Shown: positions 22,574 to 29,420, counted from the first letter of the stretch. The stretch is 64,000 nt of DNA from an uncultured bacterium (GCA_949285455.1 CASDXP010000006.1:1-64000), one strand, 5' to 3'. A program made the numbers and translations. The notes: a model not told the origin generated them from the letters alone.

Positions 22574-23194
22574 ATGCTTAGATTTAAAGAACTGGTAAAT
22601 AATAACATCTTAATGAGTGGAGAAACTGGTGCGGGTAAAAGCTACATATTGCATAAAATTATCGAAGAAATAAGAAAGGAGGATGAAGAAACTTTAATTT
22701 ACATATCTGATCCTAAATTCGTGGAATTCAAAAAAGACATCAATAATCAAAATATTCTTTCTTACGACGCTTTAGAAATAGCAAAGATTATCAAAGAAAG
22801 ACAAAATGCCATAAAAAATGATAAAAATATATCATTTAATCATCTCTTCATCATTTATGATGAAATTGGTTTATTATTGCCTCCTTCTTGTTCAATTGCG
22901 AAATCATCTATGAGGAAAGAAGCCATCGAAGATTCAATTATTAAATCCTGTAACGGCAAGGCATTTAAAGATATTAACGTGCATCTTATTGCCGCTACGC
23001 AAACACCTGCAAGATTTACCCTTGAAGAAACTTTCGATAAATTTGATTTATACTTTGAAATTAAAACTAATCTTGACGAAGATAATGATTATTACTTAAA
23101 GATGCTGAAAAAGAAATTTGGTAAAAATATTTATGAATTATGCACTACTCATTTAGATGAAAGATTCATCATCATTTATAAATTGGAGAAATAA
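22574..23194 (+). CDS. Short FtsK/SpoIIIE-like ATPase
   Basis: A 206-residue protein made of little more than one FtsK-type motor domain. Walker A is GETGAGKSY (residues 17-25), an FtsK-like DPKFVEF block follows, Walker B is LFIIYDEIGLLL, and the HLIAATQTPARF motif matches the FtsK/HerA sensor region. There are no membrane segments and no gamma DNA-reading domain. Such short motors occur in phages, plasmids and integrative elements, where they may pump DNA or drive transfer. It is preceded by GAAAGGA and followed after one base by an unknown gene in the same operon. Confidence 0.85.
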   Translation: MLRFKELVNNNILMSGETGAGKSYILHKIIEEIRKEDEETLIYISDPKFVEFKKDINNQNILSYDALEIAKIIKERQNAIKNDKNISFNHLFIIYDEIGLLLPPSCSIAKSSMRKEAIEDSIIKSCNGKAFKDINVHLIAATQTPARFTLEETFDKFDLYFEIKTNLDEDNDYYLKMLKKKFGKNIYELCTTHLDERFIIIYKLEK

Positions 23195-23195
23195 T

Positions 23196-23714
23196 ATGAA
23201 ACAATATCAAATCTTAATAGATGGTAAATGCGTTAAAACGGCTACAAATTACTACGGAACACTAATTTCATTTATTACCGAGATTGAAAACGTCATTCAT
23301 TCATACTTTGGAGCACTTGGTGTTCTTGGCTTACCTTTTCCATTTGAATCTTACTTATTATTTGATGACGAACTTGAAACAAATATTGATTTAAAAAATA
23401 AAGCTGATGATATATTAGATATCTTTCGTTTATTTAGAGTCATAAAAAATTTCACCGTTGCAGATTGGACTAATTTACACTTTGAAAACATTTCTTTTCA
23501 TGGTGATGATTGGGATTTTAGTTTAATCAATAAAAGAAATGAAACGATCATCGATGTGAAAGATGGTGAATATTATTTGAAGACGAACGTATTTTCAAAT
23601 TATAAATATCGAGGAAAACGTTACTTTAATTTCTATTTAAATAACGTCGTCGTAGACAAAAATAGTTCTTTAAGATTAGGAGAAAGAGTAAGAAAAAGCA
23701 TTCTTTTAAATTAA
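23196..23714 (+). CDS. Hypothetical protein in the FtsK-like operon
   Basis: A 172-residue soluble protein with a probable alpha/beta N-terminal half and a beta-rich C-terminal half. It contains no recognised motif. The start at 23196 is supported by GGAG 7 bases upstream, within the end of the FtsK-like gene. Directly after its TAA the same frame stays open for 43 more codons with normal-looking coding sequence, so the protein may have been about 216 residues long before a nonsense change. Function is unknown; co-transcription with the ATPase suggests a joint role. Confidence 0.7.
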   Translation: MKQYQILIDGKCVKTATNYYGTLISFITEIENVIHSYFGALGVLGLPFPFESYLLFDDELETNIDLKNKADDILDIFRLFRVIKNFTVADWTNLHFENISFHGDDWDFSLINKRNETIIDVKDGEYYLKTNVFSNYKYRGKRYFNFYLNNVVVDKNSSLRLGERVRKSILLN

Positions 23715-24261: not shown

Positions 24262-24501
24262 TTAATCGATTTTTTTCGCTAAAATATCGATGACGTCAGA
24301 AACTTTCGTCAAAGTTTCAAGTTCTTCGTTTTCAAAAGTGACGTGAAATTCATTTTCAAAGTCCATGATAACTTCTAATAAATCTAAGGAGTCTACACCT
24401 AAATCGGTCAAAGCCGTCTCGAGACTAATTTTACGTGGATCAAGTTTGAACTTGGAGACGAAGATGTCTCTTACTTTTTGTGCAATCACTTCTTTGGTCA
24501 T
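24262..24501 (-). CDS. acpP: Acyl carrier protein
   Basis: A 79-residue four-helix acyl carrier protein. The phosphopantetheine attachment serine is in GVDSLDLLEVIMDFE. Length and the acidic helix II are typical. It carries acyl intermediates for fatty acid or lipid synthesis in the cytosol. No other fatty acid gene is adjacent; the pilus operon upstream ends in its own terminator, so this gene is transcribed separately. GAGGT precedes the start. Confidence 0.95.
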   Translation of the reverse strand: MTKEVIAQKVRDIFVSKFKLDPRKISLETALTDLGVDSLDLLEVIMDFENEFHVTFENEELETLTKVSDVIDILAKKID

Positions 24502-24550
24502 ATATCTTTTACCTCGTTAGATACTTTAACAAATTATCGTGCGGATTGCA

Positions 24551-24576
24551 AAAAGAAAAGGGCTTAACACCCTTTC
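24551..24576 (-). terminator. Terminator of the Tad-like operon
   Basis: The hairpin GAAAGGG-TGTTAA-GCCCTTTTC (minus strand) is followed by TTTTT. It lies just past the last small gene of the operon and separates it from acpP. Confidence 0.8.
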
Positions 24577-24590
24577 CCCTCCTATAATTA

Positions 24591-24806
24591 TTAATTCTCG
24601 TAGAACATTAAGCTCGTGCGATCAATCTTAGTTGAAATATCTACTTGCAAAGAATTTTCCTCCGAAAGTTCAGTTTTCACTTCCGTAAATTTTGAATCGA
24701 TCGTGGCATTTAACGACGTGACGATAGTCGTCACCGTCGCTACTAGTCCTGCAAAGATCGTCAACACTAAGACGATGCCTAATAATTGGCCTTTAATTTC
24801 TGACAT
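24591..24806 (-). CDS. Small pilin-like membrane protein, last gene of the Tad-like operon
   Basis: A 71-residue protein. A short polar N terminus (MSEIKGQ) leads into one long hydrophobic helix (about residues 8-30) and then a Ser/Thr/Glu-rich tail. Size and layout fit a Flp-type or class III pilin, with possible prepilin cleavage after the basic KG, but the exact G-x4-E signature is not present. The start at 24806 is supported by AAAGGGGG 7 bases upstream; the longer in-frame reading to 24902 overlaps the preceding gene. The pilin role is inferred from shape and position. Confidence 0.6.
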   Translation of the reverse strand: MSEIKGQLLGIVLVLTIFAGLVATVTTIVTSLNATIDSKFTEVKTELSEENSLQVDISTKIDRTSLMFYEN

Positions 24807-24823
24807 TACTTCACCCCCTTTCT

Positions 24824-25162
24824 TCAGTTGTAATATCCGATGACCGTTGCCCCATTCACCCGTATGGTTAAATCTCCTCCACCAAGTAGGAATGGATGAC
24901 AATCTCTTTCAATAATAAATTCAAATAAATCACCAAATGAAGGTGCAATTGGTTCGTAAATGATACGTGTTCCTTCAAAAGAAGAAACATATTGTAATGT
25001 TTGTTCGCTCACAAAGCCTTCCTTGGCCACTAAGAATCCAACATTAAATGAAATAGTGTCAAGTTCAGTATAAACCGCCTGAATATTGATCATATCGACG
25101 CCGAAGACAAAAAGTTCGATGACGAAGACGAGCGATAATAGAAAAGATAGACTAGAACCCAC
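24824..25162 (-). CDS. TadE-like minor pilin candidate
   Basis: A 112-residue protein starting with GTG; GGGGG lies 9 bases upstream and its start overlaps the end of the TadC gene by 11 bases. An N-terminal hydrophobic helix (about 4-25) is followed by a soluble, mainly beta C-terminal part. The same layout, one membrane helix then about 90 residues, is seen in the 131-residue gene at 27588, and both fit TadE/TadF-type pseudopilins. No close motif match was found, so the assignment rests on context. Confidence 0.55.
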   Translation of the reverse strand: MGSSLSFLLSLVFVIELFVFGVDMINIQAVYTELDTISFNVGFLVAKEGFVSEQTLQYVSSFEGTRIIYEPIAPSFGDLFEFIIERDCHPFLLGGGDLTIRVNGATVIGYYN

Positions 25163-25820
25163 TTATTAATTCCCCCACGATTAAGATGATACCAAATGCT
25201 AAGATAATCATGATGATGCCCGCTCCAATGAGAGGAAACATCGACATACTATCGAGTTTTGATAACTGAGCATTCAATTTTTCATCCAAAGTTTCTTTAC
25301 GCATCCTACTTAAGAGCGTGTTAAATTGGTAAAGATAATTATTATCGATTCCCATATCCACCATCTGGTAGATAGACATCATCACTTGCTCGTATAAAGG
25401 CGAATTAAATTGATGAGCAAAAGCGATGTAAGGCTGGATAGATTTATCGTTATCAACTTCCTTTAAAAAGTAATCGATGTCTTCTTTGAAACTATCACTC
25501 ACGTATTGTTTGCATTCTTCGAATCCTCGATAGATGTTATAGCCGTTATTTAAGAAAATACGAAAGTAAGATAGCATCGACACGAATTCTATTTTTTTCA
25601 TCGCTTGTCTCTTAGTTTTGATCGATGAATATCTTTTAATATAAAAGAGATTAAAAATGATGATGAAAAAGAAAGAAATAATAGCAATATAAAGTTGAAA
25701 ATATAGAATATTAATCGTTAAGGCAGTTGCGATGATAAAACCATTAATAAGACATAGTCTTAATATTTCTTTTTTATAAGAAAGATTTAATTCTTCTATC
25801 TGTTTTTTAAAATTCTTCAT
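25152..25820 (-). CDS. TadC-like inner-membrane platform protein
   Basis: A 222-residue protein of the type II secretion F (GspF/TadC) kind. Two hydrophobic segments near residues 18-55 are followed by a cytosolic helical domain (YRGFEECKQYV, then SIYQMVDMGIDNNYLYQFNTLL) and a final membrane segment (about 195-217). In Tad systems TadB and TadC form the membrane platform on which the ATPase works. It starts with AGGAGAAATGC overlapping the end of the TadB gene. It is shorter than typical TadC (about 300), in keeping with the reduced nature of this operon. Confidence 0.78.
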   Translation of the reverse strand: MKNFKKQIEELNLSYKKEILRLCLINGFIIATALTINILYFQLYIAIISFFFIIIFNLFYIKRYSSIKTKRQAMKKIEFVSMLSYFRIFLNNGYNIYRGFEECKQYVSDSFKEDIDYFLKEVDNDKSIQPYIAFAHQFNSPLYEQVMMSIYQMVDMGIDNNYLYQFNTLLSRMRKETLDEKLNAQLSKLDSMSMFPLIGAGIIMIILAFGIILIVGELISGF

Positions 25821-26538
25821 GCATTTCTCCTAACTGTTCATCCTTAGTAGCGCGAACGATAAATATGTGGGCTGAAATCAACATAAATATAAAGAAGATC
25901 AAGACTAGATAAGGGAATATAGGATTTTTGAGCATTTCAAGATAGAAACTAGGAATGAGGAATCTAGTCATGAGCAATATTGCTAAAGCTAAGAACCAAA
26001 GAAGTGAAAAATTTAATAAAGAACGTCTAATCTTCAATTTCATCATAAGCGCTCTCGCATTTAAATTTTCCATCTCCTCTAAAATAAGCGATGACATTTG
26101 AACAATATTGCCACCTTGTTCAAAATAAAGTAGCAAAATACGGTAGTAGACATCAAAAGCACTAATCTTAAAATAATTTCTTAAATGACCAATTGCGGTA
26201 AGTCTATCTTCATGCTCTAAAGTCGATAAATATTCTTTAATAGAAGGTGATAAACTTTCACTAATCGATTCGTATGCGGCGTCCACGCTATTTTTAACAT
26301 TTATGGCGATTGTGAAGTTGTATGAAAAGTTATAGCATTCCTCTATATGCCTTAATTTTTCATTATGTTTCACAATCTTTTTTCTCGCGTAAATTATCGT
26401 GTATGAAACACTTAAAACAAATACTACAACAGGCACGATAAAATTATTAGTGACAAGATAGCTTGCAAGAACAACGAGCAGAAAAACGATACCTAAAAGT
26501 AGATAAATTAATAAATTATTACTCTTATTTTTCATCAC
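25807..26538 (-). CDS. TadB-like inner-membrane platform protein
   Basis: A 243-residue protein with two membrane segments near the N terminus (about 10-50), a helical cytosolic domain (residues 60-150) and two C-terminal membrane segments (about 168-228). The segment YYRILLLYFEQGGNIVQMSSLILEEME matches the T2SSF/TadB domain. Its ends overlap the ATPase gene by 14 bases and the TadC gene by 14 bases, so translation is tightly coupled. Confidence 0.8.
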   Translation of the reverse strand: MMKNKSNNLLIYLLLGIVFLLVVLASYLVTNNFIVPVVVFVLSVSYTIIYARKKIVKHNEKLRHIEECYNFSYNFTIAINVKNSVDAAYESISESLSPSIKEYLSTLEHEDRLTAIGHLRNYFKISAFDVYYRILLLYFEQGGNIVQMSSLILEEMENLNARALMMKLKIRRSLLNFSLLWFLALAILLMTRFLIPSFYLEMLKNPIFPYLVLIFFIFMLISAHIFIVRATKDEQLGEMHEEF

Positions 26539-27586
26539 TTATCTCCTTTAAAAATTGTTCATAATACGTTTTAGATATTTCGTTTTCTAATAGCAATTTT
26601 TCGTTTTCTTCCACTAATCTATTTATACATTTACCAAATTGATAAATTTCATGATTTCGCCCTTTTTCATCAACTTCAACCACTTGTTTTAACCGTCTTT
26701 TATAAACTCCATTTTGATAGATCTGCTCGACGTAGAAATAGAAACGAAAATGATGATTAATATCTTCTTTTAGGTCTCCGTTATCAAGCTTTAAATTTTC
26801 ATTAGCACACATCCTCGCCATACGACTACTTACACTTTTTGCATCTAAAGAATGAATAGTCGTTATAAGCGGATGACCGCTCATGGCACTAGAAAGAACA
26901 TCGTACATTTCTTCTCCTCTAGCCTCCGCTATGACAATGAATGTTGGGCTGGCACGTAAAGCATTTTTTATCAATGATTTGAAGTCTATAGATGGATGTT
27001 CTTCGTTTAATTGCCATAAGGAAAAATCGGCACCATTTTCATTTAAACATTCGTCATCTAATTCCAAAATATTATCTATGATGATGACTCTTTCTTTTTG
27101 ATCAATTAAAGATAAGACAAATTTTTGAAATTCAGTTTTGCCTGATCCCGCCCTCCCTGAAATGATGATTGATAAGTGACTTGCTAAGATCGATTTAATT
27201 AACCAAACGAGAGATTTTGGCAGAAATTCACCGTTATTTTGTATAACTAAACCAGGATGACTAACACGGATGGAAAAATTAGTTATCTTCTCTCTTCTTT
27301 TTCTTGCGATAGATGGATGAAGTGCGTTGAGTCGATAGCGATCGATACTTACATCTAAAATAGGATGAGCGTAACTAAATAATTTTTCAGTTAAATTTGC
27401 AATTTGCCTTATAAAATCATTCACGCTATTTTCTTCGATTTCTAAATTAACTTTTTTCCATCCCTCCAATTTGTTCTGAATAAAAATAGCTTCTCCGTTA
27501 TAAGTGATATCGGTAATATTTTCATCATCTAAAAGCGATGCAAGAAAAGAATTTTTTAAATATGTTAGCGCTCTATTTTCACTCAT
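26525..27586 (-). CDS. tadA: TadA/CpaF-type secretion ATPase
   Basis: A 353-residue hexameric secretion ATPase of the VirB11/CpaF family. An N-terminal domain begins with the ENITDITYNG motif. Walker A is GRAGSGKT (144-151), the Asp box is IIIDNILELD (168-177), Walker B is FIVIAEARGEE (216-225), and the His box is AMSGHPLITTIHS. All catalytic parts are present. It powers pilus assembly or protein export across the membrane. It is clearly TadA-like rather than PilB-like, since no Cys zinc cluster is present. Typical CpaF is 400-480 residues, so the N-terminal part is short. Confidence 0.92.
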   Translation of the reverse strand: MSENRALTYLKNSFLASLLDDENITDITYNGEAIFIQNKLEGWKKVNLEIEENSVNDFIRQIANLTEKLFSYAHPILDVSIDRYRLNALHPSIARKRREKITNFSIRVSHPGLVIQNNGEFLPKSLVWLIKSILASHLSIIISGRAGSGKTEFQKFVLSLIDQKERVIIIDNILELDDECLNENGADFSLWQLNEEHPSIDFKSLIKNALRASPTFIVIAEARGEEMYDVLSSAMSGHPLITTIHSLDAKSVSSRMARMCANENLKLDNGDLKEDINHHFRFYFYVEQIYQNGVYKRRLKQVVEVDEKGRNHEIYQFGKCINRLVEENEKLLLENEISKTYYEQFLKEISDEK

Positions 27587-27587
27587 G

Positions 27588-27983
27588 TTAGACTCCCTCT
27601 ACGAGTTCAAAAGTTAAAGCGTTATCGTAACTTAGAAATAAGGTTACTGGTGCGTGAATTGAAATTCTTACAGCATCACATTTATCTAAGCGACAAGTAG
27701 TGTTAGAACTAGCGAAATAAAAATAGAAACCCACTTCAAAACTTTTCGTATAACTTTCTAATGTATAAGTTAAAAAATCTAGAACTACTTCCTTTACTTT
27801 ATAAACGTCGTAATTGACGATGTAATTACCTCCACTTTCATCAGTTTCAATCACTACAGCTTGCTCTAAAACACCACGATTTAAAGAATAAAAATTTCTT
27901 TGGATACCATTCATTTGAAAAGTTCCAACAAATAATTCGAATGAGCAGATAAGTAAGAAAATAGAGATAATAATATTTGGCAT
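27588..27983 (-). CDS. TadE-like pseudopilin candidate
   Basis: A 131-residue protein with an N-terminal membrane helix (about 3-22), the linker QMNGIQRNFYSLNRGVLEQA and a beta-rich outer domain containing two cysteines (CRLDKC) that could pair. Hydrophobic helix, glutamine/asparagine-rich linker and small outer domain fit TadE/TadF. It begins one base inside the stop of the upstream secreted-protein gene and ends one base before the ATPase start. The role as minor pilin is inferred from position. Confidence 0.6.
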   Translation of the reverse strand: MPNIIISIFLLICSFELFVGTFQMNGIQRNFYSLNRGVLEQAVVIETDESGGNYIVNYDVYKVKEVVLDFLTYTLESYTKSFEVGFYFYFASSNTTCRLDKCDAVRISIHAPVTLFLSYDNALTFELVEGV

Positions 27984-29077
27984 TAATAAGTTACCTCCAC
28001 TTTCGTTTCATCCACTTGGCTTTCATCTGCATGTTCCACAATTTGACAAAAATATGAATCATAGCAACTTCCAAATATTGAATTTGTTTCATCTAGATAA
28101 AATTTATAAGTGAAAGTAAATTCGTTAGGAAGATTGAGTGTAAATCTCAAAGTAAATTGTGTTGAACAAATTGTGTCTAAATTATTTGTGGGGATGTAAA
28201 AATATCTTTCGTTCTTTTCATAACCAGCATATTTAATTGAAGACATCGTATTCGTTTTTGCATTGTAATATAATTCGTCGAAGCGAATCTTGTAAGAGAA
28301 TACTTCCCCTTCACGACTATAAAAAATAAGCTTAACTGGAATAATTCTTTCTCTAGGATATTCATGCGATTTCGCAGTTATATACGTATAAGCGCCATCA
28401 TAATCTAGAAAAGATAATGTTCCTAAGCCAATTTCATAAAAATCGACATTGTAACCATCGTATGATCTTTCATAATCGACAGTTATATCTTGTAAGGTAA
28501 AATAGTGACCACGTGTTACATTTTTCTTTTCACTAAAATTATGTAATGTAACGACATCACGACCTTTATAAACACCATGATGATCTGTAAACGCTACGTT
28601 GTAACTACTACGATATTCACCATCTTTTGCTTCGACATCAAAAATATCTTTTTCAGGAAATTTGGCCATAAAATGTCGACTTACGCCATCCAAAATATGA
28701 GCTTTTGTAATGACAACATGCAATATTGGTAAATCGTATTTACCATAAAAGTCTTGCCATTTTAAGATAAATGAAGCATCCCATACTAATAATTCATTCC
28801 CATTTCCTATTAGTTCGACAAGCCTTACTAATGGATCTACGCCTTCTATTGAGTTTTTATCGTAAGAGTCTGTGCAATAAAGCGAAAGTACATAAACTCC
28901 AAATTCATCAACTTCAAAAGAGAGAGTAAGTGTCGTATCATTGCCATATTTAGCAGGTAGAAGCTCAAAGGTTTGAATTCGTAAATCAAAAGTTATTTCG
29001 TTTTTAATCCCAAAAGCCTGTTGCTGATTAAATGGCAAGGCCAATGCTAAAAGACAGACACCTACTTCTCTTATCAT
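27983..29077 (-). CDS. Large secreted protein of the Tad-like operon
   Basis: A 364-residue protein with an N-terminal signal peptide (hydrophobic core about 5-15, cleavage probably near residue 20) and no other membrane segment. The mature part is rich in beta-prone aromatic residues. Four cysteines lie in the last 80 residues (DTICST; GSCYDSYFCQ). No known domain was recognised. Its place between the regulator and the minor pilin suggests an exported pilus-tip, adhesin or assembly protein, but this is only position-based. Search targets would be carbohydrate-binding, Ig-like or CpaB/RcpC-type folds. Confidence 0.7.
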   Translation of the reverse strand: MIREVGVCLLALALPFNQQQAFGIKNEITFDLRIQTFELLPAKYGNDTTLTLSFEVDEFGVYVLSLYCTDSYDKNSIEGVDPLVRLVELIGNGNELLVWDASFILKWQDFYGKYDLPILHVVITKAHILDGVSRHFMAKFPEKDIFDVEAKDGEYRSSYNVAFTDHHGVYKGRDVVTLHNFSEKKNVTRGHYFTLQDITVDYERSYDGYNVDFYEIGLGTLSFLDYDGAYTYITAKSHEYPRERIIPVKLIFYSREGEVFSYKIRFDELYYNAKTNTMSSIKYAGYEKNERYFYIPTNNLDTICSTQFTLRFTLNLPNEFTFTYKFYLDETNSIFGSCYDSYFCQIVEHADESQVDETKVEVTY

Positions 29078-29090
29078 GAAATGTTCCTTA

Positions 29091-29420
29091 TTATCTAGTT
29101 CCCATCAACGCATCATAAAATCTACGTGATGCAAGCTTTTTGAGACGGAAAAATGTCGCTCTACTATAAGTCTTTTCCCACCAATAAGGTTTCGCATTAA
29201 AGAAATATTCATTATTGATGAATTCACGGTCAAGACTATCTAATTTAGCGAAAGCATTTTCCACCCATTTGATGCATGCTTCTTCATCTTCAAACTCTTC
29301 ATCGCAATTATCGCTTAGAATGAGTTTATCATTACGACAACCAGATTTGATTGATAAATAAGTGATAGCAAGATTTTTTAAATAACTAGAAATCTTTGTT
29401 TCATTCGTCTGACGACCCAT
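29091..29420 (-). CDS. Sigma-region-4/ArpU-like regulator of the Tad-like operon
   Basis: A 109-residue protein. The second half, LDSLDREFINNEYFF, then WWEKTYSRATFFRLKKLASRRF, has the shape of a sigma-70 region 4 or phage ArpU/late-transcription regulator helix-turn-helix. The first half is acidic. It is the first gene of the operon, 13 bases before the secreted protein gene, with AGGAAAG before its start. It probably controls this operon itself. The fold call is from pattern recognition alone. Confidence 0.6.
   Translation of the reverse strand: MGRQTNETKISSYLKNLAITYLSIKSGCRNDKLILSDNCDEEFEDEEACIKWVENAFAKLDSLDREFINNEYFFNAKPYWWEKTYSRATFFRLKKLASRRFYDALMGTR

Follow-up and report, generated by a model that had tools for sequence, protein, structure and literature searches.

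The window, a stretch of 64,000 nucleotides from the genome of an uncultured bacterium (1.1 Mb, 97% complete, in 21 contigs), contains a compact operon of eight genes (Table 1). In an ORF reading of the window, all eight are open and follow one another in the same direction on the minus strand, from 29420 to 24591, overlapping or nearly so, as the original prediction had placed them. The terminator that it also named can be read after the last gene as a hairpin and T-run (24550-24575) but is not among the outputs of a consensus terminator scan. A gmk-like gene and hflX are found upstream of the operon, and the acyl carrier protein gene (acpP) and two tRNA genes downstream. Next to the two tRNA genes (22574-23714, plus strand), a gene for a HerA/DUF87-like P-loop ATPase overlaps a gene of 185 aa that has no family match. 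This pair may be a small insertion of a mobile or defence kind.

Table 1. Genes of the operon, its probable terminator, and the downstream neighbour.
Feature	Coordinates	Strand	Description
gene 1 (hth)	29091..29420	-	109-aa sigma-region-4-like DNA-binding protein, MPN403/MG284_C family
gene 2 (big)	27983..29077	-	364-aa secreted protein, signal peptide and beta-sandwich domains
gene 3 (p131)	27588..27983	-	131-aa single-helix membrane protein; place and topology pseudopilin-like; without prepilin site
gene 4 (TadA)	26525..27586	-	TadA/CpaF-type secretion ATPase, intact motifs
gene 5 (TadB)	25807..26538	-	TadB-type platform protein; based on profile match to TadC family and position
gene 6 (TadC)	25152..25820	-	TadC-type platform protein; based on T2SSF matches in relatives
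gene 7 (p112)	24824..25162	-	112-aa TadF-like protein; long N-terminal helix and small beta sheet; without prepilin site
gene 8 (flp)	24591..24806	-	71-aa Flp-like protein; N-terminus MSEIKGQLLG, uncleaved-looking
probable terminator	24550..24575	-	hairpin AAAGGG-CCCTTT (24557-24575), then T-rich run (24550-24556); read from sequence, after last gene
acpP	24262..24501	-	acyl carrier protein gene, NF002148 (1.5e-17); downstream neighbour, context, outside the machine

PMC10191384 and PMC3244431 supplied the definitions by which membership in the Tad and type IV filament systems was judged. Of the Tad-pilus components, a TadA/CpaF-type ATPase and two single-domain platform proteins are encoded. 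In profile searches, TadA matches PF00437 (E 2.9e-21), TIGR02788 (E 1.3e-30), and TIGR03819 (E 2.6e-26). Its motifs are all present (Walker A GRAGSGKTE, AEARG, and TTIH), so that the ATPase is intact, as had been predicted. Relatives in the PDB are archaeal T2SSE, VirB11, and CpaF, and the ATPase motifs are intact across nearly all loci of the operon. Apparent second copies of TadA in the genomes compared are mostly split ORFs or contig ends, the exceptions being G107 and type IV pilus ATPases. TadC of the window has a weak T2SSF match (0.006), and the same profile matches nine of 29 relatives (best 2e-5). TadB and TadC are homologues (profile-profile E 4e-10). The identities first given to these two proteins are upheld by these matches.

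The small membrane proteins are less easily placed. The original prediction described two of them as TadE-like. One of these, p112, matches TadF (PF16964) rather than TadE, with hits in four of 30 relatives (best 2.5e-4). The other, p131, which has no Pfam match, is like TadE in size, place, and topology only. In its AF2 model (pLDDT 87), p112 has the long N-terminal helix and small sheet of a pilin-like layout, but a PDB search with this fold gave no match. The kinship of p131 and p112 with TadE/TadF is weak. No family was matched by p131 or by the Flp-like protein. The N-terminus of the latter, MSE[ILF]K[GA]Q[IL]LG, is nearly invariant and is the best conserved part of the protein. Glu3, Gly6, Gln7, Leu9, and Phe18 are fixed in all 30 sequences from family f1, and Gly6 is replaced by Ala in some other families (f1-f8 and g1-g56 are group codes, not taxon names). 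Some loci have a tandem pair of flp-like genes (L120:2500-2895; G071:C3:114066-114421), which suggests that one Flp-like subunit is major and the other minor.

None of 143 small proteins (41 Flp, 53 p112, and 49 p131) has the G/A-x4-D/E site at its N-terminal membrane helix; eight regex matches, which lie past the helix or fall in a start that was extended too far, were set aside. This means that the Gly|x4-Glu-Tyr motif of Tad-pilus Flp is found at the N-terminal helix in 0 of 41 sequences, and that the cleavage site of TadE/TadF pseudopilins is found in neither the p112 nor the p131 set. The subunits, previously called shortened, are better described as having no cleavable prepilin leader. 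In 41 of 41 Flp sequences, the second residue is Ser, Gly, or Ala, and therefore removal of Met by methionine aminopeptidase is possible. Hypothetically, this removal might substitute for leader cleavage.

The prepilin peptidase (A24) is missing as well. PF01478 has no match in the whole genome of the window, while it has 13 matches across 279 genomes of the order and is positive in 12 of 14 control genomes. A second profile, made from A24 proteins of the order itself, likewise has no match in the window's genome, nor in the closed, single-contig genome G258. TadA is matched in 204 of the 279 genomes. Three of them were dropped (G020, G037, and G278, with PilB-type or other T2SSE ATPases), leaving 201 that carry the operon. 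A24 is absent in 191 of these 201, G258 included, and this count treats a partial match below the cut-off in G147 as presence. The prediction of a reduced Tad-type machine without prepilin peptidase thus holds beyond the window, and the operon lacks the TadV (A24) peptidase of Tad pili. TadZ and CpaB/RcpC are not found among the ORFs at the locus, and there is no secretin in the operon. Note that most of the genomes are metagenome assemblies in which a single absence may be a gap; the argument uses many genomes and contiguous loci. The 12 loci with a real A24 match (L081-L092) have a classical type IV pilus setting, separate from the operon, with a PilC-like protein and GFTLVE-type prepilins. 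A PilB-like ATPase is found within the stretch fetched in nine of them, and prepilins with the G|xxxxE site in 11. These type IV pilus operons are patchy in the order, occurring in addition to the core operon or in its place, and were perhaps acquired horizontally.

The gene order hth-big-p131-TadA-TadB-TadC-p112-flp recurs at dozens of loci in five families of the order (f1, f4, f6, f7, and f8), which exceeds what chance would give; in f4, f6, and part of f8, the profile match of gene 2 is below significance or missing. In family f1, the operon mostly sits between hflX/gmk-like genes and acpP, and most loci have acpP next downstream. A comparison of the window with its nearest relative (TadA 85-86% identical) gave dN/dS of 0.02-0.22 across seven genes (hth was left out). 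These ratios indicate that the complete operon is under purifying selection, and the peptidase-independent trait seems to span the order. Neither TadA nor p112 is matched in seven near-complete relatives (G089, G172, G173, G070, G079, G124, and G259). Therefore, the entire operon can be lost.

Another kind of loss removes only the motor and the pilin. In genus g27 (5/5 genomes), the operon is hth-big-p131-TadB-TadC-p112-acpP; TadA is gone, and the p131 gene directly adjoins or overlaps that of TadB. G133 has the same arrangement without hth. Family f3, and f5 (L189, with a weak p112 match), have hth-big-p131-[TadB/TadC in one ORF]-p112, where the f3 assignments of platform, gene 2, and p112 are backed by profile comparison. 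In this single ORF of 267-377 aa (L122-L124, L143, L145, L189, L191, and L193), found in operons without the ATPase, the platform appears to have been re-fused or to have shrunk. No T2SSE-family ATPase above the cut-off is found genome-wide in G133, G025, G027, G030, and G196, and Flp is found neither in these genomes nor in the other g27 genomes, G028, and G037. G138, the sister of G133 (91% SH-aLRT), has a TadA gene without the Walker A Thr, AExRG, and TTxH, and has no Flp; with its dead ATPase it is an intermediate. On a tree of TadB, TadC, p112, and p131, in which G133 is a long branch, the reductions in f1 need two changes, forced by starred branches, and f3/f5 is a third lineage with reduction. 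TadA and Flp were thus lost together, genome-wide, in at least three lineages. The reduced operons, with dN/dS of 0.01-0.16 in g27 and 0.06-0.30 in f3, are under purifying selection, which acts on gene 2, TadB/TadC, p131, and p112. The co-loss together with this selection argues that TadA and Flp act as one unit and that the remainder functions without them. The motor and pilin are then jointly dispensable. This, and peptidase independence across the order, go beyond the original prediction.

The signal peptide of the gene 2 protein is read from its sequence. Its AF2 model (pLDDT 74) is all beta, consisting of beta-sandwiches, and comparison with PDB folds gave nothing but generic Ig/arrestin-like beta-sandwich matches (TM about 0.2). 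No family is matched in profile search, and C-terminal motifs are conserved among relatives. The modelled protein is a candidate for display or secretion.

According to a recent review (PMC10191384), all type IV filament systems, however simple, have a pilin, a prepilin peptidase, an extension ATPase, and a platform; the operon lacks the peptidase of this core set. An order-wide operon under selection, with pilin-like proteins, ATPase, and platform but with neither peptidase nor sites contrasts with this four-protein rule. The operon is like Tad/Flp pili (type IVc; e.g., Aggregatibacter tad and Caulobacter cpa) in having a TadA/CpaF ATPase, paired TadB/TadC, and Flp-like and TadE/TadF-like small proteins in one operon. 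Unlike these pili, it has no TadV or any other A24 protein, no G|xxxxEY in Flp, no TadE/TadF-like site, and no secretin; TadZ and CpaB are not seen at the locus, and it has its own regulator and beta-sandwich protein. It is reported that Gram-positive tad-like loci without a recognisable prepilin signal still encode TadV, TadZ, and RcpC (Imam et al. 2011, PMC3244431). Both kinds of loci are without prepilin motifs, but the operon locus has none of these three genes and its genome no peptidase. MSH pili also have a locus without prepilin peptidase, and their genomes offer T2SS, T4aP, or Tad peptidases (PMC6668835), whereas the genome of the operon has none to borrow. The monoderm Com pilus (ComGA/GB/GC, ComC) is similar in its minimal motor and platform. 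Unlike the operon, it has ComC, class III prepilins, and a single platform protein, and the operon is not associated with ComEC. In Bacillus atrophaeus and Amphibacillus (L046-L048), the order small protein-TadA-TadB-TadC-p112-like is as in the operon (p112 profile E 1e-5 to 1e-6), but TadA is longer, the last small proteins are different, and no hth or beta-sandwich gene is detected upstream. Their small proteins seem to be without Glu5 too, and an LXG-like protein is encoded downstream in Amphibacillus.

Since the ATPase and platform are found while the peptidase, the Flp motif, and processed pseudopilins are not, the operon is named Tad-derived and not a Tad pilus. We consider it probable that it encodes a Tad-derived (type IVc filament-like), peptidase-independent envelope or surface machine, in which a platform/pseudopilin core function is separable from the motor and pilin. 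TadA-type ATPases drive platform proteins, which move pilins. Here, the small proteins would insert in the membrane via the N-terminal helix and would then remain uncut or have only the initiator Met removed. TadA would power TadB/TadC to move the Flp-like subunits and raise a short pseudopilus. This may be capped by p131 and p112, which would present or export the beta-sandwich protein at the surface, and gene 1 would regulate the operon. Because lineages losing TadA and Flp together retain TadB/TadC, p131, p112, and the beta-sandwich protein, this core may have a surface function of its own. Assembly of uncleaved prepilins is not known from the type IV filaments studied so far, which counts against this explanation, as do the weak TadE/TadF kinship, the missing PDB fold match of p112, and the absence of the operon from several near-complete genomes of the family. 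Processing might also be the work of a peptidase without homology to A24. The repeated natural deletions of motor and pilin, with one intermediate, can reveal which parts form one functional unit. They make testable the role of a platform without motor, as the operon does the need of cleavage and Glu5 for pilin handling.

A canonical Tad pilus with prepilins cut by a peptidase that is encoded elsewhere or has diverged strongly is improbable. It is common for prepilin peptidases to be unlinked and to serve more than one system (PMC6668835), and the host assembly, in 21 contigs, is 97% complete, but A24 is absent from it and from 191 of the 201 operon genomes, the closed one included, by a Pfam profile that finds 12 of 14 controls. 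The substrates have no cleavage site either, and therefore enzyme and sites are missing together. Equally improbable, and disfavoured, is a DNA-uptake (competence) pilus feeding ComEC, comparable to Tad-dependent transformation of Micrococcus. ComEC is present in the window's genome, Flp/Tad-dependent transformation is known (PMC4322843), and Com pili are minimal (PMC10191384). However, TadA and ComEC are found together no more often than chance predicts in the 279 genomes (odds ratio 1.05, p 0.89), and many genomes carry one of them alone.

The signal peptide of gene 2 and its kept linkage in complete and reduced operons would suit a pseudopilus-driven secretion device for the 364-aa protein, without filament. 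This is rather unlikely, as the Sec pathway alone would release the product in a monoderm. Gene 2 is also retained where the motor is lost, and its export therefore cannot strictly require TadA. Genome reduction, whole loss of the operon in some relatives, and the dead TadA of G138 would fit a decaying, functionless remnant. We give this very little credence in view of the strong purifying selection on complete and reduced operons, the ATPase motifs intact in nearly all loci, and the order-wide retention. Somewhat easier to entertain, though still doubtful, is that TadB/TadC, two uncleaved pilin-like proteins, and the beta-sandwich protein form a distinct, non-filament surface module. A Tad pilus would have lost its peptidase and then, repeatedly, motor and pilin, and mycoplasma MG284-MG285-MG286-acpP could be the last remnant.

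Mycoplasma-like genomes (TGA=Trp; L183-L187, L192, and L194-L213) have a conserved cluster of an hth gene (MPN403/MG284 family) and genes for a protein of ~380 aa and a membrane protein of ~140-200 aa, with acpP next in many. The hth...acpP frame is common to this cluster and the window operon. Profile comparison gave no significant homology of the ~380-aa and ~140-aa proteins to genes 2 and 3 (E 0.21 and 0.07; reversed controls 0.92 and 0.13). The best alignments to both genes fall on expected motifs, though not significantly. The link to the MG284-MG286 cluster is thus only a lead, and we found no literature on this cluster or on an ATPase-less Tad platform. Gene 1 itself matches NF045770 MPN403_MG284_C (E 9e-16, 57.6 bits against a cut-off of 37.3), and its match to RinA is merely marginal. 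It is likely the regulator of the operon. Note that hth is the first gene in most loci but is missing from genus g19 and from L064; it is therefore not obligatory. The phage-like HTH first predicted, a roughly correct description, is sigma-region-4-like, and its relatives are found in mycoplasmas, in other members of the class, and in front of phage tail genes. The regulator family extends beyond the operon. A gene of the same family precedes phage tail genes in L190, and others are found next to ptsI in f25 and in other contexts in f20.
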